This document shows, in pieces, positions 16,472 through 51,346 of a stretch of DNA of 64,000 nt. The stretch is from Ailanthus altissimus (lineage: Eukaryota; Streptophyta; Magnoliopsida; Sapindales; Simaroubaceae). Under the pieces are notes generated by a model. It was not told the DNA's origin. It ran no database searches and worked only from the letters and a program-made list of their open reading frames with translations. The stretch's first letter is position 1. Every line of letters starts with the position of its first letter. Location of the stretch: the NCBI GenBank assembly GCA_946807835.1, contig OX327704.1, forward strand, positions 5,704,001 through 5,768,000, read 5' to 3'. Made by a program: the position numbers and the translations under genes.

Positions 16472-16827
16472 TTTTCTCTCAACTTTTTTTAAAAGAAAAG
16501 TAGCTGCCATACTCTTTTCCTCCTTCCCCGATAAGGAGACCTTAAGCCCCTCTTCGACAAATGAATCTCTTTTTCCTTGCCCTAATTCTCAGCATCTCTT
16601 AGATTTTTCCTCTTTTGTCTTTTTTCCTATTTTCTTTTAGTTTTAATCGCCCTATTTTTTTTCCTTTCTTGTTTTTCGCTGGTCTTCTACCCTTGATCTA
16701 GCAATGTCATCGGCCGCGATAATGCCCAGATCCCTTGACGAAGACCCTGTATCACTGTTTTGGAAGCCTCTGCGCCAGACTGCTGTCAAGCCCTTTTGGT
16801 CCCAACAACCTTCATGGCTTTATTTTA
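16472..16827. other. Junction region after the orphan LTR, no gene
   Basis: Pyrimidine-rich sequence following the putative PPT. Short open frames here run into the tandem repeat and have no known protein similarity. I could not tell whether it belongs to the orphan LTR's element or to the Tat-type element. Confidence 0.4.
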
Positions 16828-17270
16828 ATTTCAACTACGTTAAATATCATAATTTCGATTTCAATTCTAATTTTAATTTTCTTAAGTTATAATACAAATC
16901 CAATTTTAATTTCAATTGTGTTAAATGTTATAATTCTAAATCATATTTCTATTTCTATTACGTTAACTGTTATAATTCTAAATTACAAATTCAATTTCAA
17001 TTATATTAAATATTATAATTTAAGTTCTAATTCTAATTTCAATTACGTTAAATGTTATAATCCAAATCAAATTTTAATTTCAACCATGTTAAATGTTATA
17101 AATTCTATTCCAATTCTAATTTTAATTTTGCTAAATACTATAATCCAAATCTAATTTTAATTTCAAATACGTTAAATGTTATAATTTTAAATCTAATTTC
17201 AATTTCAATTATGTTAAATATATTTTTAATTTCAATTAGGTTAAATGTTGTAATTTCAAATCTAATTGAA
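16828..17270. repeat. Degenerate ~41-bp minisatellite, about 10 copies
   Basis: The core 'gttaaatgttataattctaa' and close variants recur near 16838, 16917, 16958, 17003, 17044, 17087, 17128, 17168, 17210 and 17237, giving a period of 40-45 bp. Between cores lies a T/A-only stretch of the 'attttaatttcaatt' type. The 139-codon frame across it (asparagine, isoleucine and leucine only) is a by-product of the repeat. Confidence 0.8.
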
Positions 17271-33623: not shown

Positions 33624-34785
33624 CTCTTCATATTTTGATTGTGTAGCACTTATACATCTCCATAAGCATCTGTACAATAAGTTAACTCCTCAAGCATTAC
33701 AATGTGTTTTTCTTGGGTATTTTGCTTACCAAAAGGGTACTAATATCATCCTCTAACTCAAGTAATGTTTATCACAATAGATGTTATGTTCCATAAAGAC
33801 TTAATGTACTTTTCCTTTAAGTTTAAACTTCAAGGGGAGTATCAGGAGGAAATTCAAACTTTAGACTATGATTTTCACACTTTTGATGTAAGAGAATCTA
33901 AAACCAAGATATTAGCATAAACATGGATTCTAGTGGTAATGACTCACAATAGAACTAATTAATTAGGAAGTGTGTGAGTTAGATTTAAATGGTATCACAT
34001 TGGATCTATATAGTGATCAACAACTAGAAACTGAAGCTGAAAGTATAGATCCACCTATATCTTCGTTAGAGTCAGAGATCTAATCCAAGTCTTTCATACC
34101 AAAACCAACAGATATGCTAAACCAATCACTTGCTAAGGATGTTCCTAAGTTAAATTATAAGCCATTAATAAAACAATTATTGTAATGTTGCATTAGAGTT
34201 ATCCTTAAACCCATACATAAACTTACATTTTCTAGTAAAGTTAAATATCCCATGAATCATTATATGTCTAACCATCGTTTGTTAGAATCAGATTAGTTAT
34301 TTGTATATAAATTATCTATTGTATCTATTTCTTATAGTGTGCATGAAGCCTTAGCTGTCCTAAGGTAGAAATTTTGTTATAAATGAGAAGATAAAATCTT
34401 TATAAAAGAATGAAACCTATAAACTCATTAATTATTTTCCAAAGAAGAAATCGGTTGAATATTGATAGATTTACACTATAAAGTATAAATAGATGGCATA
34501 ATTGAACACTTTAAAGCAAGATTTATGGTAAAATAGTACACCTAAACCTATGGAATTGATAATATAGAGACATTTGCTTCCGTAGCTAAAATAAACATAA
34601 TTAGAGCTTTGTTGTCTTTAATTGTAAACTAGGATTGGCCATTCAACAATTCGATGTAAATAATGCCTTTATACATGGAAAATTGTCTGAAGATGTCTAC
34701 ATTTATCTCTTACCCGGATGCATGATATTAGAAAGTCATAATCAGAAGTTGTGCAGATTAACAAGAGCATTTGATGGGTTGAAGC
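33624..34785 (+). pseudogene. Copia E integrase C-terminus and start of reverse transcriptase
   Basis: Resumes after the solo LTR with 'QALQCVFLGYFAYQKG', the conserved block after the copia integrase core. It then passes through the linker to the RT: 'NTLKQDLW' then an open stretch at 34635-34785 ('FDVNNAFIHGKLSEDVYIYLLPG', then 'LCRLTRAFDGLK'). The reading is cut in the conserved 'GLK/QS' region of the RT by the LTR retrotransposon at 34786. Confidence 0.8.
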
Positions 34786-37503
34786 TGTCACGCCCCAGAC
34801 CCAAAAGATCTGACACACGACATCACTTACATTCATTCAATAATACTTAAACATTCATTTTAATTTCTTTCAGAATTATAGTAATTGAATTATGACTGGG
34901 ACAATTAGTAAACCGGAGATACGCAGAGTTTTCTCAGAGATTAACACTCTACTACGTCACCAGTAACAACTTTATTACCGGAAGCCCAGAATATATTCAT
35001 TGTAAATTCTTACTTAAAATCAATCTATTACTACACTTGGTGAAACTTAAACTAAATCCAACCACACATAATAAAATAATACATAAGTATTTATTCACTA
35101 GGGACAAATCAAATATCTTATCCCACGTGTCCCCAAATGAAACACTTAGCAACCTAACAACTTAGGGAACCCAAGGAACAGCAGAAGCCTTGCCAAATCC
35201 GCTAAGCACACATGTACCTTATTTACCTGAAATCACCATAAACTATAATGAGTATAAAACTCAGTAAGCATACTAGTTTTTCATATATCAAATACAAATA
35301 CATATATGTACACAATGCATATGTATGATATGTTGTGATCAATCAAAATCATAATCTTATCAAATCACATATCATGTAAGCGCTTACATATTCTTTCAAA
35401 ACACATAATAGGAATACCATCACTCAACTACTACTTAGTAGGACTTACATATCACATATCACATAATGAGCCAAATGTCACTCGTAGGTGACATACCGTA
35501 TGAGAGGAATAGTACAAGTGAGGTCTTTAAATCACACATATATAACGCTTATGCCCGAAGCTAAAAGCCAAACCCTCACCCTGATCATCGGTGAGTCCTC
35601 TCACGTGTACCAATACGCCACCACATGAATGTGATGACTCACACTTCCTTTAGGTACCAATAGGATCCTCCCTACATACGGAACACATAACATATACCAA
35701 TCCCGAAGGAAAGGCCACACATAAAGGCTCCACAAATCACATAAAATGCCTACTAAGTTAACAGTGAGTTCAAGTACCCTCAAATCACAAAATATTTCTC
35801 ATGGACATATTACACTTCAAAAGCTTTCTTTGTTAAACGCATCTTATTTTGGAAAGCTCACTTTCAAAAACACATGTATGTCCATGCTCAATGTCAATGC
35901 TCACATTCATAAACATATATTCACATTTCATATCAAAATATACTTTGACATATCATAAACATATTCTTAACCCCATTTACAAAATCATACAAAACAATTA
36001 TTATGTTTATTGTGATTCCAGTAGTAAGTCTAGTATACTTACCTCTTAACACTTTCAGCTACAAGGCTTAAATCTCCTTAACCTATCAATGGAGATTAAT
36101 CCTTTCATAAGCCTCACAATTCACACAAAATACTTTAAATAGCTTACAAAATTATACACAATGCATTTATCACATCAAATTAGTCTAAATATTTGGTTTA
36201 TCAAAACCTGTCATTCTGACCACTTACACTTAACAAAAATTTCTAATACATCAAATGATATCCAATTACTCCAAAATCAGAATATACCATTCTTGACTCA
36301 TATATCCTTCTTATATATGAATATTATATCAAATTTCCTACACAATCCATTCCATACACACCATCGAATCCAAACTACAAACCTGACAGGATCAAGATAC
36401 TTACTGAACAGTATTCAATCTCCCAATTTTATAAAATCATATACTAACTCAAAAATTATAAAACTACCACATAATTACTCTTAACACATATATCAGTTCA
36501 TGATAAATATTTCACTTCCAAATCACTGCCAAAAGTATTTTAAAACTATTTTATTCTATAACTTTAAAAATCTGTTAATCAAATATTGCAATGAGCTGAT
36601 ACACTTTAGAAATTCATAACACTTCAACCACATTGATCTAAATTCTCAATTCCGAGTATATCATATTAGACATATAAACTTATCATATTCCACAAATTCA
36701 TAATTTTTTAAGATCATTCAGTAGGACAAAAATTATTTTTCACTGTACTATACTGTTTACACAGGAAATTTCCAGAATTTCAGGGTCATTTTGGTAAATT
36801 CACTATAAATTCAATTTCCAGAATTTTCAATCGATTCAAAGTCTCAGATGATCCTTAACATGTCTAATTTCATATACTCAAAATTCAAAACCAGAATCGA
36901 ATCACAAAAATTTATAAAATTCCTAGATCAAGAGGTTATCCAGCAGAAATTCCACAATTCATCATGATTTATCAAACTATCTTATAGATCATCATCAATT
37001 CTCATATGATCTTACGAAATACACAACAAATTCTCAATTATACATATTTTCAGAAATCAAAACTTAAAGGAATTAACTTAATTAATACCAATAAATTGAA
37101 AAATACGTATGATATACCTCTTGAAATTCAAAATTCCAATTTCTTCTTCTTTTTCTTCTTCTTCTCCTCTTTCTCTCTCCTCTATTTCTCTCTTCTCTCT
37201 CTTAAAATGGGTAGCTCGACCTAAAAATGGTAAATTAGGGTTCAAAAGTGTATTTTTATACTAAGAGGCTAATTTTTAGTATTTATGAATTTGCCCCCAA
37301 AACTTTCAAAGTATAACAATTTGGTCCCTAAAATAAATCTAAAGTCTTGCAATTAAACCCAATGTTAATAGTATGACCTTAACCTATACAAACACTACTA
37401 ATAATAATATATAAATCAAATATCCCCCACATACAAATAAAATACGTATATTTATACATATATAAATATTTATTATTACCGGTTGTAGATACTGGTTACT
37501 ACA
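34786..37503 (-). repeat. 3' LTR of the LOG-carrying element
   Basis: 2,718 bp with TG...CA ends, duplicated at a fixed offset of 6,458 bp as 41244-43961. Every stretch I compared, including the short open frames at 35601, 35849, 36161 and 37006, is identical in the two copies. These frames are LTR by-products, not genes. A pyrimidine-rich block (37139-37205; GA-rich on the transcribed minus strand) follows the U3 TATA box. Confidence 0.95.
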
Positions 37504-37630
37504 ATTCTCCCCTCCTTATATGAATTTCGTCCTCGAAATTCATGACTTGAGTAAACATATTAGGATACTTAAATCTCATTTCTTATTCTCATTCCCAAGT
37601 TGCCTTTTCAACCGTATGGTTTATTCATAA
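37504..37630 (-). pseudogene. Chromovirus integrase C-terminal relic plus polypurine tract
   Basis: On the minus strand, just before the 3' LTR, the sequence reads 'VEKATWE', two stops, then 'MRFKYPNMFTQVMNFEDEI' and 'RRGEL'. This is the chromodomain-side tail of a Ty3/gypsy chromovirus polyprotein, whose terminal codons normally overlap the PPT (AAGGAGGGGAGAA, about 37505-37517). It identifies the parent of the element as a chromovirus and shows that the rest of pol has been lost. Confidence 0.75.
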
Positions 37631-38329
37631 AACATTTACAAAACAATCTTCTTGGTATATAAGATTTGCTCATAGCTTAGTCTGTGAGAGGAGTACGAAA
37701 CATTCATCCATAAAATAAACACATGACACACATTATGGACTTATAAAATTATACACACATAATTTTTACTCTTTTCTCCCATTCGTTCAATATTTAATAG
37801 GCATCTATACACTTCACCTTTTATTCATTAAAGAATAACATAGATGTAGAATACTCATACTAAACTCTTAAATAAAATTTTTAACTCTTCTGAAAATTTT
37901 AATCCTTTCAACATATACTCATACGTCATAATATCATTCACTTCTTTGATATCATTCTAAAAAAATGTAGCATTTCTACGCAACTAAGTTGTCATTCAAA
38001 TCAGAATATTGAAGGCATTATCTTAAATGATCAAAAATCAACTTCAATAAAATAAAATAAAAACCTTTAGTTCAATTGATTCTCAAACTATAAATCTCAA
38101 CATTATATCTCTTACTCTAAATCTTAAAAAAAATAGTCCACCTTATTGGACATCATTTTCTCATTGAGACTGACATGTCTGCTTTTTCTAATATGCTCGA
38201 TTTCAAATAGAAAAGATTTCACTAGCACAATTACTGCGATGGCAAATATGATTCTTTTAACTATTCCTTTAACGTCATCCACGTAAAAGGAAAGGACAAA
38301 ACGATTATTGATTTTCTTTCATAAAACTC
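37631..38329. other. Upstream region of the first cargo gene
   Basis: About 700 bp of AT-rich sequence between the chromodomain relic and the TATA box at 38330. I see neither coding text nor gypsy pol similarity. It may hold the promoter captured with the cargo gene. Confidence 0.4.
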
Positions 38330-38337
38330 TATAAATA
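38330..38337 (+). promoter_or_regulatory. TATA box of the first cargo gene
   Basis: TATAAATA within 'ctctataaatag', 63 bp before the cargo ORF's last upstream base. Spacing predicts a leader of roughly 35-40 nt. Nearly the same box (tctataaata) precedes the LOG gene. Confidence 0.6.
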
Positions 38338-38399
38338 GCCTAAACCTCATAATCACTTTTCTAGCAATAAATAAAACCAACCTTCTTACCATCTTCATA

Positions 38400-39560
38400 A
38401 TGAATCCCATTATCATAACTCCTCCTGTTCCTTTTTCTCCACCACAATTTCCAGACCTAATCAAAACCAGAACACTCCATTCCCGTGCCAAAGAATTCAT
38501 CAGACACTACGCCATCTTAGCAGTCCAAGAACACGGCCTTACAGTTCTTGGTGGCCCTTTGTTCAACTTAGAATACCCTTTCTTCCACCTACACTCTTTT
38601 TTCCCATTTTCCCAATGGTCCAAACCTGTCCTTTACTTGTTATGGTACCTGTTGGATCTGTATACAATCGCCATGGAATTCCCATTACTTAGAACCCTCC
38701 AAAAATTAGAAAAATGTGATGAAGATCATCCAGCCCTGATTTTTCTCCAATGGTTTTACCCAAAGACATGATGGATAACTAAATTTCAATACATGATTGC
38801 AAACAACACAAATGCTGCAGTCCCCAGACAACATCTTTGGTCAGTCTTACTTCTCCAACGGAAGGGTATGATTATTTCAGATCACGAGATTCATTATTAC
38901 CCCACGGTTAAGGATTACTTCACATTTACCCTTTCACTAAAGGGATCAATTAAGCTCTGGCCTGAAGAAGTAATTCAGCAAAAGAGAGAACTTGAAAGAA
39001 TTCTTGCTCAGGAAAATCAAATAATTCCTCCGTCTGTTTGGATCTCCCCAGAAGATGCTGCACCTTGGGAACAAGTTGAAGCTGACTTTACAGAAGACCT
39101 GAATTTTGCCAATATACTCAAATTCCAACAAAGACAAAAATATCATCTTTCACATCTCAGAAATACAGATTACTCTATTCATCATCACCATATCCCAAAC
39201 ATGACTTATTATGCCAGATACAGACAAGCAATGGATAACCTTCACCAATGGCCTCAGCTAACTGTCCCGACAGAACCTACCCAATCTCAGCCAGTTGTCC
39301 CGACAGAACCTGACCAACACCAACCCAATCTTGACTTATCCCTCTTTCAAGACTCCCAACCTTATCTAACCGACACTCAAATCCAAGGGGAATCCAGCAC
39401 ATCCCTCATCCAGACCAGCTCACCTGCAAAAGATCAAGATATGGTAGACCCACCTTCCACTCAGCCAGAGCCCTCATTCAATGTATGGGAACAACAACTC
39501 CATAAGTTTCTCTCTTACGGATACGACACAGATGAAAGCGACGAGAGAGACTCATTTTAA
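38400..39560 (+). pseudogene. Unrecognised 386-residue protein, one in-frame stop; cargo of the retrotransposon
   Basis: ATG at 38400, TAA at 39558-39560, one reading frame with a single TGA at 38769-38771 (codon 124; a C-to-T from CGA or G-to-A from TGG would explain it). The N-terminal part is proline-rich then aromatic, with a hydrophobic stretch 'PVLYLLWYLLDLYTIAMEF' at about 77-95. The middle has a charged helix (about 189-205), then HHHH at 261-264. A duplicated 11-residue unit starting VPTEP (289-310) follows, and the tail is acidic and serine-rich, ending 'DTDESDERDSF'. It is not gag, protease, RT, RNase H or integrase, and I recognise no family. It is antisense to the element and has its own TATA box, 1.75 kb from the matching box of the LOG gene. 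With the stop intact it would make a 123-residue fragment. Reinitiation at codon 132 (38793) would give 255 residues. Confidence 0.75.
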
Positions 39561-40085
39561 CCTACATTGTTGTTTCTGCATTTCACAGAAACTAGATCCG
39601 TGTTGTTCTATCACATCAAAGAGAGACTGACTACTGCTTTATCTTTATGTCAAGTGTGCTTTATTTTTCTTTATGTCTGCTTTTAATCTATCGGCCAAAA
39701 ATCAATGTTAAGACCACAAAAATTCTTATAATTAATAAAGTTAATTTGGCCTCTTGTCCAAAGTCTAGTTGGTAGCTTTTAAAAGTCTTCAAGTCATATA
39801 TGCATTGTCGGCCATTAGTGCCAAAACGGCAAAGTCCCTAAATCCATAAAATAGGCATTTATTGACTTTTCTTAATCATCTTACCTAACTCATCACGCTT
39901 CCGACACAATTTTATTACACTTACATATCAACAAATATTTATTCAAAATTTTGCGGCCTATTGTCCCTTATAGAATAATAAAGTAAAACTCATTCTTTTC
40001 TTTTTACCTCACAAGAATTGAGAAAAACGTATATACTTGAACATACTTACACATATGCTCCACAGCTATTATCAATTTGTTTCTC
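39561..40085. other. Intergenic region between the two cargo genes
   Basis: About 525 bp: the trailer of the first gene (an 'aataaag' near 39736 could be a poly(A) signal) and the upstream region of the LOG gene. No open frame or retrotransposon coding text. Confidence 0.45.
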
Positions 40086-40093
40086 TATAAATA
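40086..40093 (+). promoter_or_regulatory. TATA box of the LOG cargo gene
   Basis: TATAAATA in 'ctctataaatacattg', 60 bp before the ATG at 40154, implying a leader of roughly 35 nt. A TATA box at normal distance suggests the gene was captured with, or has gained, its own promoter, on the strand opposite to the LTR promoter. Confidence 0.6.
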
Positions 40094-40153
40094 CATTGTT
40101 TTTGCATCCTTATACAAACTCAAAAATATTCAAAGATTAGGGTGAGTGTAACA

Positions 40154-40807
40154 ATGGAGGAAACCTCAGCTCGTCGATTTACAAAAATTTGTGTCTTTTA
40201 TGGATCCAACCCTGGAAATACTGAAGAGTTTACAAAAGTTGCAGAAAATCTTGGTAAGGTATTAGCTGAGCGAAATATACATTTAGTATATGGAGGAGGT
40301 AACCGAGGGTTAATGGAGTCTGTGGCAAAAGCTGCACATAATAAAGGTAGTCGAGTTTTGGGTATCATTCCAAAACCTCTAGCTATTGAAAATATTGTAG
40401 GAAAAACAGTTGGGGATGAGTTACAAGTCTCATCTATGCACGAGCGAATGGCTCAAATGCTTAGGCATGCAGATGCTTTCATAGCTCTACCAGGAGGTTT
40501 CGGGACCTTGGAGGAAATTTTTTAAATTATCTCATGGGCACAATTACAAATCCACCAAAAACCCATTGGTTTGTTAAATGTTAATGGCTTTTACGACGGG
40601 TTGATATCTTTTCTTGACTATGCAGCGGGAACACAATTCATCCCACTTCTAGCACGACGGATTCTTATTTCAGATCCAACTGTTGATCAACTAATTGATC
40701 AATTACAGTCTTTTATTCCTCTGTCTAATCCAACATTGCATCAGTTAGATTGGTCTACTCATGACAGTCAGAAGAAGCGCAAAATAGACTTAAATCTCAC
40801 TCCGTAG
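40154..40807 (+). pseudogene. LOG-like: LOG-family cytokinin riboside 5'-monophosphate phosphoribohydrolase, intronless, one nonsense codon
   Basis: LOG enzymes release active cytokinin bases from their riboside monophosphates in the cytosol and nucleus. The start is the ATG at 40154 in 'acaATGG'; a GTG four codons upstream is in frame but not a likely start. Readable blocks are 'ICVFYGSN' (N-terminal strand), 'LVYGGGNRGLM' (nucleotide-binding loop), 'MHERM' (95-99), the family signature PGGFGTLEE (113-121), then 'SWAQLQIHQKPIGLLNVNGFYD'. Codon 124 is TAA (40523-40525); a C-to-T change from CAA is the simplest cause. The length without it, 217 residues, is normal for LOG. Arg98 is kept, but the Lys usually next to it in the canonical LOG motif is Met. 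The tail is KKRK (207-210) followed by DLNLTP (212-217), which fits a nuclear-localisation-like basic patch plus an EAR-type DLNxxP motif. Plant LOG genes normally have several introns, so this looks like a processed copy. A poly(A) signal follows at 40854. Confidence 0.9.
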
Positions 40808-40853
40808 CCTCTACTGTATTTTTGTTGTTGCTATTGTTGTTGTTTTCCTTTTC

Positions 40854-40859
40854 AATAAA
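40854..40859 (+). terminator. Poly(A) signal of the LOG cargo gene
   Basis: AATAAA in 'tttcaataaaagttg', 47 bp after the stop codon, following a TTGTTG-rich trailer. No genomic A-tail follows it. Confidence 0.55.
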
Positions 40860-40907
40860 AGTTGTTTCAATTGATGTCTTCAATACTCAACTTCTCTATA
40901 TTTTGTC

Positions 40908-40927
40908 ATTGAGAAAATTTTCTCAAT
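40908..40927. repeat. Perfect 20-bp palindrome
   Basis: attgagaaaattttctcaat reads the same on both strands and lies about 50 bp after the LOG poly(A) signal, close to the edge of the captured segment. It may be chance in AT-rich DNA or a scar of the capture event. Confidence 0.6.
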
Positions 40928-40929
40928 TT

Positions 40930-41226
40930 GCTCTATGACATGCAAATTATCATTATAAGATATTCGACATCATTCTTGCTAAGCATATTAGTCACAACTT
41001 AAAAAAAATTCTAAATGGTAACATAAGATCCACAAGGTACCATTATCCACAACAACAACAATCTTAGCAGCTCTTGGATAATGTGTCAACTTCACAAAAT
41101 CATACAAAATTTAAGGAATATGTCAAACTTTTACACAACAAAGCTACAAATACAATCCTAAGGATTTGGCATCTGCTCGGTTCCCTTGACTCGACACTTA
41201 AAAGTCTATAGAATCATATCTTAGCT
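40930..41226 (-). mobile_element. Retained 5' leader of the LOG-carrying element
   Basis: Sequence between the PBS and the LOG transcription unit. Its start (minus: 'CTAAGATATGATTCTATAGAC') looks like the leader that follows the PBS in chromoviruses. Gag would be expected after it but is not found. No open frame of note. Confidence 0.5.
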
Positions 41227-41238
41227 CTGATACCAATA
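41227..41238 (-). other. Primer-binding site (tRNA-Met type)
   Basis: The plus strand shows ctctgatacca next to the LTR; the minus strand reads TTGGTATCAGAGC, complementary to the 3' end of plant initiator tRNA-Met. A few bases (ttttat) separate it from the LTR end. It fixes the element's orientation. Confidence 0.85.
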
Positions 41239-41243
41239 AAAGC

Positions 41244-43961
41244 TGTCACGCCCCAGACCCAAAAGATCTGACACACGACATCACTTACATTCATTCAATA
41301 ATACTTAAACATTCATTTTAATTTCTTTCAGAATTATAGTAATTGAATTATGACTGGGACAATTAGTAAACCGGAGATACGCAGAGTTTTCTCAGAGATT
41401 AACACTCTACTACGTCACCAGTAACAACTTTATTACCGGAAGCCCAGAATATATTCATTGTAAATTCTTACTTAAAATCAATCTATTACTACACTTGGTG
41501 AAACTTAAACTAAATCCAACCACACATAATAAAATAATACATAAGTATTTATTCACTAGGGACAAATCAAATATCTTATCCCACGTGTCCCCAAATGAAA
41601 CACTTAGCAACCTAACAACTTAGGGAACCCAAGGAACAGCAGAAGCCTTGCCAAATCCGCTAAGCACACATGTACCTTATTTACCTGAAATCACCATAAA
41701 CTATAATGAGTATAAAACTCAGTAAGCATACTAGTTTTTCATATATCAAATACAAATACATATATGTACACAATGCATATGTATGATATGTTGTGATCAA
41801 TCAAAATCATAATCTTATCAAATCACATATCATGTAAGCGCTTACATATTCTTTCAAAACACATAATAGGAATACCATCACTCAACTACTACTTAGTAGG
41901 ACTTACATATCACATATCACATAATGAGCCAAATGTCACTCGTAGGTGACATACCGTATGAGAGGAATAGTACAAGTGAGGTCTTTAAATCACACATATA
42001 TAACGCTTATGCCCGAAGCTAAAAGCCAAACCCTCACCCTGATCATCGGTGAGTCCTCTCACGTGTACCAATACGCCACCACATGAATGTGATGACTCAC
42101 ACTTCCTTTAGGTACCAATAGGATCCTCCCTACATACGGAACACATAACATATACCAATCCCGAAGGAAAGGCCACACATAAAGGCTCCACAAATCACAT
42201 AAAATGCCTACTAAGTTAACAGTGAGTTCAAGTACCCTCAAATCACAAAATATTTCTCATGGACATATTACACTTCAAAAGCTTTCTTTGTTAAACGCAT
42301 CTTATTTTGGAAAGCTCACTTTCAAAAACACATGTATGTCCATGCTCAATGTCAATGCTCACATTCATAAACATATATTCACATTTCATATCAAAATATA
42401 CTTTGACATATCATAAACATATTCTTAACCCCATTTACAAAATCATACAAAACAATTATTATGTTTATTGTGATTCCAGTAGTAAGTCTAGTATACTTAC
42501 CTCTTAACACTTTCAGCTACAAGGCTTAAATCTCCTTAACCTATCAATGGAGATTAATCCTTTCATAAGCCTCACAATTCACACAAAATACTTTAAATAG
42601 CTTACAAAATTATACACAATGCATTTATCACATCAAATTAGTCTAAATATTTGGTTTATCAAAACCTGTCATTCTGACCACTTACACTTAACAAAAATTT
42701 CTAATACATCAAATGATATCCAATTACTCCAAAATCAGAATATACCATTCTTGACTCATATATCCTTCTTATATATGAATATTATATCAAATTTCCTACA
42801 CAATCCATTCCATACACACCATCGAATCCAAACTACAAACCTGACAGGATCAAGATACTTACTGAACAGTATTCAATCTCCCAATTTTATAAAATCATAT
42901 ACTAACTCAAAAATTATAAAACTACCACATAATTACTCTTAACACATATATCAGTTCATGATAAATATTTCACTTCCAAATCACTGCCAAAAGTATTTTA
43001 AAACTATTTTATTCTATAACTTTAAAAATCTGTTAATCAAATATTGCAATGAGCTGATACACTTTAGAAATTCATAACACTTCAACCACATTGATCTAAA
43101 TTCTCAATTCCGAGTATATCATATTAGACATATAAACTTATCATATTCCACAAATTCATAATTTTTTAAGATCATTCAGTAGGACAAAAATTATTTTTCA
43201 CTGTACTATACTGTTTACACAGGAAATTTCCAGAATTTCAGGGTCATTTTGGTAAATTCACTATAAATTCAATTTCCAGAATTTTCAATCGATTCAAAGT
43301 CTCAGATGATCCTTAACATGTCTAATTTCATATACTCAAAATTCAAAACCAGAATCGAATCACAAAAATTTATAAAATTCCTAGATCAAGAGGTTATCCA
43401 GCAGAAATTCCACAATTCATCATGATTTATCAAACTATCTTATAGATCATCATCAATTCTCATATGATCTTACGAAATACACAACAAATTCTCAATTATA
43501 CATATTTTCAGAAATCAAAACTTAAAGGAATTAACTTAATTAATACCAATAAATTGAAAAATACGTATGATATACCTCTTGAAATTCAAAATTCCAATTT
43601 CTTCTTCTTTTTCTTCTTCTTCTCCTCTTTCTCTCTCCTCTATTTCTCTCTTCTCTCTCTTAAAATGGGTAGCTCGACCTAAAAATGGTAAATTAGGGTT
43701 CAAAAGTGTATTTTTATACTAAGAGGCTAATTTTTAGTATTTATGAATTTGCCCCCAAAACTTTCAAAGTATAACAATTTGGTCCCTAAAATAAATCTAA
43801 AGTCTTGCAATTAAACCCAATGTTAATAGTATGACCTTAACCTATACAAACACTACTAATAATAATATATAAATCAAATATCCCCCACATACAAATAAAA
43901 TACGTATATTTATACATATATAAATATTTATTATTACCGGTTGTAGATACTGGTTACTACA
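41244..43961 (-). repeat. 5' LTR of the LOG-carrying element
   Basis: Second copy of the 2,718-bp LTR. On the minus strand it runs from TGTAGTAACC (43961) to GGGGCGTGACA (41244) and is followed by the primer-binding site. Transcription from this copy would read leftward through the internal region. Confidence 0.95.
43709..43718 (-). promoter_or_regulatory. TATA box of the 5' LTR promoter
   Basis: Minus strand TATAAAAATA, followed about 35-110 bp downstream by a long GA-rich tract, as in transcribed leaders of plant LTRs. The same box is in the other LTR at 37251-37260. It would drive the genomic RNA leftward, antisense to both internal genes. Start site inferred. Confidence 0.55.
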
Positions 43962-43966
43962 GAAGC

Positions 43967-49300: not shown

Positions 49301-51346
49301 TAAATACAAGTTGTAATGGAGAAATTGATTATATGTAGTGGACCTAAAATGAATTAATTGTGTAGAATGTAAAATAGCATGACCCCATACAGAAATTGGT
49401 AATTATGTGTACATCAATAAAGTACGGATAATTACCTGATGTCGTTTAATTAAGGATTCTGCTAATCCATTTGTGTGTGATCATATGGCACAAGATATTC
49501 TATATCTATTCTCACTGATGTACAATAATCATAAAATATTTTAGATGTAAATTCATCACTATTATCTAAACGTATGGTCTTAATAGGGTATTTTAAAAAT
49601 TGTGCCCTCAATTTAATAATTTGTGCTAGTAATATAGTGAATGCAACATTTCGTATAGACAGTAAACAAACATATGACCACCGTGCAGATGCATTAATTA
49701 AAATCATAAAATAATAAAAAGGTCCACTTGGTAGATGAATTGGTCTATAGATATCTCTTTAGATCTTTTGTAAAAATGATGGAGATTCTAGACCAATATT
49801 GGAAGGAGATGGTCTAATTACAAGTTTACCTTATGAGCAAGAATTACAAATATTCTCATTAGGCAACAAAATCTTCAAATTTTTTAATGGGTGCCCATGA
49901 GAATTTTCAATAATTATACGCATTATTGTTGATCCTAGATGATTAAGTTGATCATGCTATAATATAAACATTTTGAATCACTATATTTCTTGTTCGTTAC
50001 TCCATAGCTCTCAATTAAATTTGTAATTGTATAACATGAACCAGATGATAGGGCATAAAGCTTTTCAAGTATACATTTCTTGTTTGAGACATTAGAAGTA
50101 ATGCAAAAATATTCTACATCATTTTTACTTAAGGTCTCTATGTGATATCCATTTTAGATATTGAGCTTTCAATTTCGTATGTAGATGATAACAAAGAAAA
50201 ATCATAGCTTTCGACGTGTCCTACAGGGAAACGTTATTTTTCTTTTTTAATATTTTTTTTCAAACCATTAGTTTGAAGATGCATTTTAGTATCAAGTTTC
50301 CATGATAGATAATTTTTCAAAGACGTCAAATACAGGGATTTGTAAATTTATAAAAGATATTTTTAGGGGCTTTAAATATAAGAAAAGGAATTAAAATTAG
50401 TATGATGAAATATAAATATTATTTAACAAATATCTAACGTAAAAAATAAATATAAAAAGAAATTTCAAGATACACTGCCTTCTATATATATAAATAATCA
50501 AAATTAGGAGGCAGTGTCTTCCATATATCAGTAGTATTGAAAAAGTACAACCTTCCATTTATTGATAACAATAGGGAGGCGTGGCCTTCTATAGATTAAT
50601 AGTAATAATAAGGTATAACCTTCCATAAAATGATAATAGTGAGGAGGCGTAGTCTTCTATAAGATGATAATAATGAGGAGGCGTAGTCTTCTATAAGATG
50701 ATAATAATGAGGAGGCGTAACTTTTCATATAATAATAAGGATGCATGACCTTTCATATGAATAAATAACAAATTAAAAAATTATGATATAGAATTTCAAA
50801 TTCTAAATCAATAAGATTAATTATTAGAATTACATGTTTTAACTTATTGATTTTGTTATACAAACTTAAGGTTGCATATACAATATTTAAATTTAAAAGA
50901 ATAGACATAATATAAATAGAAGATAACTGATGTATAATATTACCCTTATTTTTTGATGTGAAAAATTTAAATAAATGACAACCACAATGCATACTCATAA
51001 GAATTATATTATATAATAATATAAACACAATATAAATAATAATTGAATATAAATGAAACATGTATAAATAAATGAATATAAACTAAAGTAAGTTAAGAAC
51101 TTAATCTAAAAGTTAAGAATTAAATTTACCTAAAAATTGTACTGATAATGTGTTATAAAATAAATAATAAAAGCAAAAATTAAAGATAATTTAGATAAAA
51201 ATCTTTAAAAAAGATTATAAAAATTTGAAAAGTATTGAAAATTAATAAATTACAAAGTAGTGTATACATGTTTATAAACATATGAGAGGGGTAGAATTTA
51301 CCAACACGTCCCTCCCCTACTAACTCTATTTACCGCCTCACAATCG
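46399..51346 (-). mobile_element. Gag-less Ty1/copia element (copia F)
   Basis: Minus-strand copia with short LTRs (about 46399-46582 and 51151-51346, ~185-195 bp), both starting tgttataaaat on the plus strand. A degenerate PBS (minus: ATTATCAGTAC) is at 51140-51150, and a possible TSD gatac at 46394-46398 and 51347-51351. Domains from high to low coordinates: leader with tandem repeats, gag-pre-integrase (about 50160-49840), integrase (49707-49462 open: 'LINASARWSYVCLLS', 'IRLDNSDEFTSK'), RT (47957-47751: 'GFAIVAIYVDDMN'), then RT/RNase H (47678-47424 and onward). Gag, the zinc knuckle and protease are missing between the leader and pre-integrase. Multiple stops. A long plus-strand frame at 47827-48090 is a shadow of the RT. 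Confidence 0.82.
50474..50750 (-). repeat. 34-bp tandem repeats in the copia F leader
   Basis: Two perfect 34-bp copies (50641-50674, 50675-50708) of 'gaggaggcgtagtcttctat' plus 14 more bases, with diverged copies on both sides (near 50503, 50570, 50709). The repeated core is ggaggcgt followed by cttctata. Confidence 0.8.

Follow-up and report, generated by a model that had tools for sequence, protein, structure and literature searches.

A non-autonomous LTR retrotransposon family of Ailanthus altissimus carries an antisense LOG-type gene with a signal of purifying selection

Introduction

The carriage of LONELY GUY (LOG) genes by long terminal repeat (LTR) retrotransposons is already known, and is the background to the element described here, which lies at positions 34786–43961 of a 64,000-nucleotide stretch of the Ailanthus altissimus genome (assembly GCA_946807835.1, contig OX327704.1, positions 5,704,001 to 5,768,000 of the forward strand; the whole stretch is referred to as the window). 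Steinbauerova et al. reportedly found, in 2011, two Athila-like elements similar to LOGL4. A YgdH (LOG) domain has been reported in Gypsy elements of Citrus and Populus, with citation of an earlier report from 2011 (PMC9289625; this and the other papers given by PMC number are cited from excerpts). Like the family to which the window element belongs, those are LTR elements with a LOG-type gene in several copies, but they were found through a reverse transcriptase (RT) marker and so possess pol, which the window family lacks (PMC9289625). The window family also differs from them in that its LOG gene is antisense, has its own TATA box and is accompanied by a second, orphan gene. An earlier note on this DNA had treated LOG-carrying LTR elements as undescribed, which the Citrus and Populus elements contradict.

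An antisense open reading frame (ORF) in the internal region is likewise found in Grande (gene23), RIRE2 and Retand (PMC7264820, PMC11963269), and gene23 of Grande is driven by a promoter of its own and yields a nuclear product (PMC7264820). These three elements possess gag-pol, whereas the window family does not, and for accessory ORFs of the Grande type no clear likeness to other proteins is described, whereas the enzyme family of the LOG product of the window family is identified (PMC7264820). Maize Bs1, which is named in the same paper, likewise contains a host-type gene, but transduced genes are usually in sense orientation and in one or a few copies (PMC7264820), whereas the cargo of the window family lies in antisense orientation and is retained in a large family. 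Large retrotransposon derivatives (LARDs) resemble the window family in having LTRs, a primer-binding site (PBS) and a polypurine tract (PPT) without gag-pol. LARDs are mostly non-coding.

The explanation that we prefer overall, and consider probable, is a non-autonomous LTR family in which LOG and ORF1 form two antisense accessory transcription units; our confidence is high for its structural and selection components. The new features are the C-terminal tail of the LOG protein and the selection signal. No report was found, among the titles and abstracts searched, of a gag-pol-less antisense LOG design, of its selection signal, of the C-terminal tail or of this family; the match for retrotransposon, LONELY GUY and the ethylene-responsive element binding factor-associated amphiphilic repression (EAR) motif together was PMC5425979. 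What antisense accessory ORFs do in plant retrotransposons has yet to be settled (PMC7264820). Here, one such ORF encodes a member of an enzyme family whose chemistry is known, and its conserved tail falls into a known motif class; with many intact copies and public RNA-seq data for the species (ERR9435026, ERR9435027), this makes the question of function directly testable.

A complete LTR element without gag-pol

The segment 34786–43961 is a complete LTR element in minus orientation. Its TG...CA LTRs of 2,718 bp lie at 34786–37503 (3' LTR in element sense) and 41244–43961 (5' LTR), both on the minus strand, and align with 2,718 of 2,718 bases matching, which bears out the earlier note's description of the LTRs as identical and of the copy as very young. 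The 5-bp target-site duplication (TSD) that the note had reported, GAAGC, is present on both sides (34781–34785 and 43962–43966), although it lies just outside the span 34786–43961 that the note had assigned. The PBS, TGGTATCAGAGC, is of the tRNA-Met type and occupies 41224–41235 on the minus strand; it is the single occurrence of this sequence in the window (0 of 100 shuffles), and its 12 bases are unchanged in 28 of 28 copies. This type is the commonest in plants and is not diagnostic of lineage (PMC6317226). The PPT, AAGGAGGGGAGAAT in element sense (37504–37517, minus strand), adjoins the 3' LTR at 37504, as read from the sequence of the window copy. Since the PBS is on the minus strand and the PPT at 37504, the element reads along the minus strand and both of its genes are on the plus strand. 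Direct TG...CA LTRs with a 5-bp TSD, a PBS and a PPT at the proper LTRs, and dispersed copies in different targets together identify an LTR retrotransposon.

No Pfam match to gag, RT, RNase H or integrase was found in any of the 14 element-sense ORFs of at least 40 aa in the internal region, as the earlier note had also concluded; the longest of these ORFs has 84 aa, and one has a weak, sub-cut-off match to the unrelated COS (E 0.049). The window element therefore lacks the gag and pol ORFs of an autonomous Gypsy or Copia element. Whether gag-pol was replaced, as the note put it, remains a matter of inference because no autonomous sibling was found.

The target of the insertion is an old Copia RT (RVT_2-like, plus strand, 34605–34785, resuming after 43966). 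The RVT_2 profile match on 34605–34847 (E 6.4e-07) reaches 29.6 bits, slightly below the cut-off of 31.6. When the empty site was rebuilt by joining the flanks with one TSD copy, the Copia RT frame crossed the insertion point, with stops further along, and the element was thus inserted in an older, decayed Copia element.

A large and young family in the Ailanthus genome

The genome searched comprises 37 sequences and 939 Mb, in a HiFi assembly with a quality value (QV) of 61.1 (PMC10472066). A DNA search with the internal region, which gave 3,955 first-look candidates, identified at least 39 full or nearly full internal copies, and residues 1–123 of LOG as a query (5,122 candidates) gave at least 150 LOG matches that are 96–100% identical. 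The 39 internal copies exclude a single-copy locus, which the earlier note had named as one outcome that would overturn its reading, and LTR identity, TSDs and the many dispersed copies rule out a chance origin. Among the 150 LOG matches listed, 133 are in open frames of at least 238 aa and 13 in frames shorter than 217 aa, with four ambiguous ones of 218–226 aa (all by eye). Twenty copies from near the top of that list were retrieved in full. The family LTR sequence was present in all 20, and perfect 5-bp TSDs with TG...CA ends in 16, of which 15 were identified by script and one, L012, by eye; of the remainder, L009 and L013 resemble tandem arrays, running into a second internal region, and L019 and L026 are damaged. 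The window element is a young copy of a large non-autonomous LTR retrotransposon family, one that, as the note had proposed, spreads a LOG gene in this genome.

Aligned LTR pairs are 99.3–100% identical, with 0 to 16 mismatches per ~2,720 bases, and additionally 18 gap positions in the pair of L027. At substitution rates of 2.5e-9 to 1.3e-8 per site and year, 16 mismatches correspond to roughly 0.2 to 1.2 million years, and identical LTRs to much less, although LTR gene conversion could give copies a younger look.

By eye, 27 of the 150 listed LOG matches form 13 groups at 6.4–6.7 kb spacing (e.g., C7:26384640, 26391339 and 26398038), and these look like the tandem arrays expected of an LTR-internal-LTR-internal-LTR arrangement. 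Such groups are the one feature that could suggest a segmental or assembly artefact, a possibility that the earlier note had raised. It is contradicted by the different 5-bp TSDs at dispersed sites, by the HiFi assembly quality and by the clean empty site, and we give it practically no weight.

Two antisense transcription units

Both genes lie on the plus strand, opposite to the element, as the earlier note had described, but both are broken by in-frame stops in the window copy and are intact only in other copies. ORF1 (38400–39560; stop at 38769–38771) encodes an orphan protein of 386 or 397 aa where intact, and LOG (40154–40807; stop at 40523–40525) a protein of 217 aa. Each has the TATA box TATAAATA ahead of its ATG, by 70 bp in ORF1 (38330–38337) and by 68 bp in LOG (40086–40093), and each is followed by a poly(A) signal AATAAA (39734–39739 and 40854–40859, respectively). 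All four signals are on the plus strand and conserved in 28 of 28 copies, in agreement with the note's view of independently promoted cargo, and we infer that the TATA boxes act as promoters.

The ORF1 protein has no match in Pfam or NCBIfam, and a search of 5.8 billion proteins (E up to 1) found P0121 alone, with 93% identity. Its fold prediction reached a predicted local distance difference test (pLDDT) score of 38.8, too low to be informative. The ratio of nonsynonymous to synonymous substitution rates (dN/dS) of ORF1 is 0.385 (26 copies), a moderate constraint despite the single protein relative.

The LOG protein matches PF03641 and TIGR00730. Its score with the NCBIfam equivalog CtkRMPhLog, a model that serves bacterial and archaeal annotation, was 124.5 bits against a cut-off of 300. 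Arabidopsis AtLOG3 (PDB 2a33) and At5g11950 (PDB 1ydh) align to residues 6–201 and 2–200, respectively, of its 217 residues and share with it the Arg and PGGxGTLE, although the LOG protein departs from AtLOG3 at about half of its residues. Of 58 Ailanthus copies, 55 have the catalytic-type Arg and PGGFGTLE. Relatives were taken as the best 120 of 7,924 proteins, mostly of 212–217 aa, from Reevesia, Xanthoceras, Paulownia, Populus, Diplodiscus and unnamed contigs; using our own pattern, PGGxGT was found in 106 of them, 102 of which also have the Arg. PDB 5zbj and 5zbk have a different residue in place of the motif's second Glu, a change that we interpret as a catalytic mutant. Intact copies of the element probably encode a protein capable of cytokinin activation.

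The C-terminal tail and the LOG clade

A feature that sets the element LOG apart from LOG1/3/4-type host proteins is an extra tail at its C-terminus, SQKKRKIDLNLTP (40766–40804, plus strand), which on pattern comparison consists of a basic cluster and an EAR motif of the DLNxxP type. By definition the EAR motif takes one of two forms, LxLxL or DLNx(x)P (PMC6283911, PMC9956375), and the window family has DLNLTP. Among the 120 relatives, 97 end in LxLxL and one, P0001, which is 100% identical to the window family, has DLNxxP, versus none of 120 LOG1/3/4-type host proteins for either form, a host set that includes a few fusions with odd C-termini. The basic cluster is present in 108 relatives versus one host protein, and cluster and EAR motif occur together in 93 relatives and in none of the host proteins. 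Under the speculative model given below, the DLNxxP of the window family and the LxLxL of most relatives would look as if function, rather than the letters themselves, had been kept.

For phylogenetic analysis, we excluded three fusions among the 120 relatives and trimmed each row of up to 222 aa at residue 200, so that the tail did not contribute; a few longer rows were left untrimmed. In the unrooted tree, 49 of the 117 relatives formed one group versus 31 host rows (29 of the 120 host proteins and the two Arabidopsis PDB sequences), with support of 100/100; host LOG2, LOG5 and LOG7 were outside the tree sample. With two bacterial outgroups, the element-type group comprised 29 rows (98/95) and the host group 17 rows (100/97). 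Judged by sequence, the window LOG belongs to a multicopy LOG clade from several eudicot orders, and the copy number of the foreign LOGs, together with the Ailanthus families, suggests that these too may be element-borne. The earlier note had compared the cargo to a transduction of the Bs1 kind. Because the clade spans several eudicot orders, the LOG gene is probably long-established element cargo and not a recent, one-off transduction.

The Ailanthus genome contains further multicopy intronless LOG families. A query with AtLOG3 gave 5,694 candidates; all 150 places listed are uninterrupted over residues 3–195 or 3–188 and 51–54% identical, most are in frames of 250 or 253 aa, and 24 have one or two internal stops (by eye). 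Intron-containing host LOG genes of Ailanthus were not among these 150 matches. By eye, these places seem to be disjoint from the 150 listed LOG matches of the window family. Two copies of the further families were examined, L065 and L066, whose LOG proteins have 217 and 215 aa, identities of 73 and 59% to the window family and the tails KKRRIDLTLRL and NKRKFDLTLRL, respectively. The TATA box CTCTATAAATAC ahead of LOG in both is the same as that of the window family. The DNA of L065 resembles the window element from just upstream of the TATA box to past the stop (80.5% over 734 bases) and again in the 3' region (77.6% over 98 bases), and this extent marks the LOG transcription unit as the shared module within the 2.1 kb examined. 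The LTR and PBS of the window family were not found in those 2.1 kb around L065 or in 1.1 kb of L066, whose own LTRs lie beyond. On the 3' side of LOG, L065 has GACATTAAGGACAATG followed by TTGGGGGGAGG (L065:996–1033). This arrangement, we presume, recalls the post-pol region of Athila-type elements, and it may indicate a link of the LOG module to Athila-like elements.

Selection on the cargo

Nucleotide diversity in the first 28 copies, 20 of which were chosen by LOG protein similarity, was 0.015 in LOG, 0.027 in ORF1, 0.030 downstream of LOG and 0.045 in the intergenic region; LOG was intact in 19 of these copies and ORF1 in 13. A first estimate of LOG dN/dS, 0.149 in 19 intact copies, rested mostly on protein-similarity picks and was superseded by that from the 39 DNA-picked copies. 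In these, LOG dN/dS was 0.404 (bootstrap over copies 0.34–0.49), with values of 0.302 in the 20 intact copies, which confirm that intact LOG cargo exists elsewhere in the genome, and 0.56 in the 19 broken ones. LOG codons 124–217, which lie outside the 123-residue query, gave a dN of 0.0087 and a dS of 0.046 in L009–L028.

Single and shared variants were compared in 36 copies (three tandem ones dropped). Single LOG variants had a ratio of nonsynonymous to synonymous changes (N:S) of 67:19, or 1.32 times the neutral ratio, versus 26:18, or 0.54 times, for shared variants (Fisher p 0.039). With protein-picked copies added (55 in total), the counts were 72:20 for single and 33:26 for shared variants (p 0.006). 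These results show purifying selection on LOG in shared variants and none in single ones, which is the pattern expected if inserts decay freely while replicating lineages retain LOG. Two stops, each found in a pair of copies, seem to have arisen independently rather than by inheritance, and one stop is common to three tandem copies.

The history of the window copy bears on this point. Against 37 LTRs, ten private changes were found in both of its LTRs, and its internal region, compared over 3,544 bases with 27 copies, has 18; the LTR count may be too high, as the LTRs of its closest internal relatives, L002–L008, were outside that comparison. Because private changes are common to both LTRs, the stops of the window copy probably predate its last jump and were already present in its source.

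An alternative reading of the selection data is that LOG is a captured passenger of no use to the element, its apparent conservation being the result of a recent burst from few source copies. The little divergence within LTR pairs, the breakage of 19 of the 39 DNA-picked copies and a broken lineage that seems to have jumped are all as this reading would have them. It does not account for LOG diversity being the lowest of the internal region or for the lower N:S in shared than in single variants, nor for the two further LOG families (one copy examined of each), in which the open frame (217 and 215 aa), the TATA box and the tail are retained while protein identity to the window family is 73 and 59%. 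We therefore consider it unlikely.

Selection might also act on antisense transcription itself, with RNA from the LOG and ORF1 promoters regulating the element or its silencing irrespective of the proteins. Both TATA boxes are conserved and oriented opposite to the element, and a regulatory role of antisense transcription has been discussed for other plant elements (PMC7264820). However, the pattern of conservation tracks codons, the catalytic-type residues and the tail at the C-terminus, for which an RNA-only role would have no need, and this alternative appears less probable still. The third alternative, selection on the plant for using one or more copies as cytokinin genes, would be in keeping with the many apparently intact LOG units, but the selection signal resides in variants that copies of the family have in common, a set of at least 150 dispersed and nearly identical copies is unlike maintained host genes, and the tail is absent from all 120 of the LOG1/3/4-type host proteins. 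Cargo of benefit to the host is thus very improbable.

Several of our own results weigh against the explanation that we prefer, a non-autonomous family with selected antisense cargo. LOG or its start codon is disrupted in nearly half of the DNA-picked set (the 19 copies above), and that set is less biased rather than unbiased, as its DNA query contained LOG. A copy with broken cargo, such as that in the window, could still transpose, which speaks against a strict need for LOG. The contrast between single and shared variants is not significant for ORF1 (p 0.147). The 120 relatives on which the tail comparison is based are not independent, ~41 of them (by eye) being from Reevesia, and the Xanthoceras copies have a terminal basic cluster without LxLxL. 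Lastly, a pattern search for an autonomous partner gave 16 sites, and all four that were examined belong to the same family, one of them, L061, with a family match over 275 of 400 bases only.

Proposed role of the cargo

Potentially, an autonomous partner supplies Gag-Pol in trans, while the LOG protein of intact copies would convert cytokinin nucleotides into free cytokinin. The tail might, in addition, bring the protein to the nucleus and to the TOPLESS corepressor, a step that we put forward tentatively. Either or both of these routes could make the cell more permissive for the element, by keeping it competent for division or by damping host transcriptional responses. Taken at its broadest, this model is that an old retrotransposon-borne LOG clade, found across several eudicot orders and, within one genome, in three families, gained a nuclear-localisation and EAR tail and so became a selfish host-manipulation protein that activates cytokinin and recruits nuclear TOPLESS, such that new copies arise in division-competent, permissive cells. 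We regard this as speculative, and more doubtful than the TOPLESS step alone. Some mobile elements may, in this way, manipulate the host plant. Should the tail indeed function as an EAR motif, the corepressor handle of the fungal and oomycete effectors Jsi1 and HaRxL21 (described here from excerpts) would be one that plant mobile elements exploit as well.

Other observations in and around the family

No Rfam match at gathering scores was found within the window. Tandem-repeat arrays lie outside the element at 16822–17261 and 50563–50764, with units of ~42/83 and 34 bases, respectively. Older LTR pieces beside L018 (L059:4967 to L060:488) were considered as a possible partner element and rejected, as they form a solo LTR with the TSD ACATC. 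This solo LTR belonged to an older family member and was the site at which a young copy inserted.

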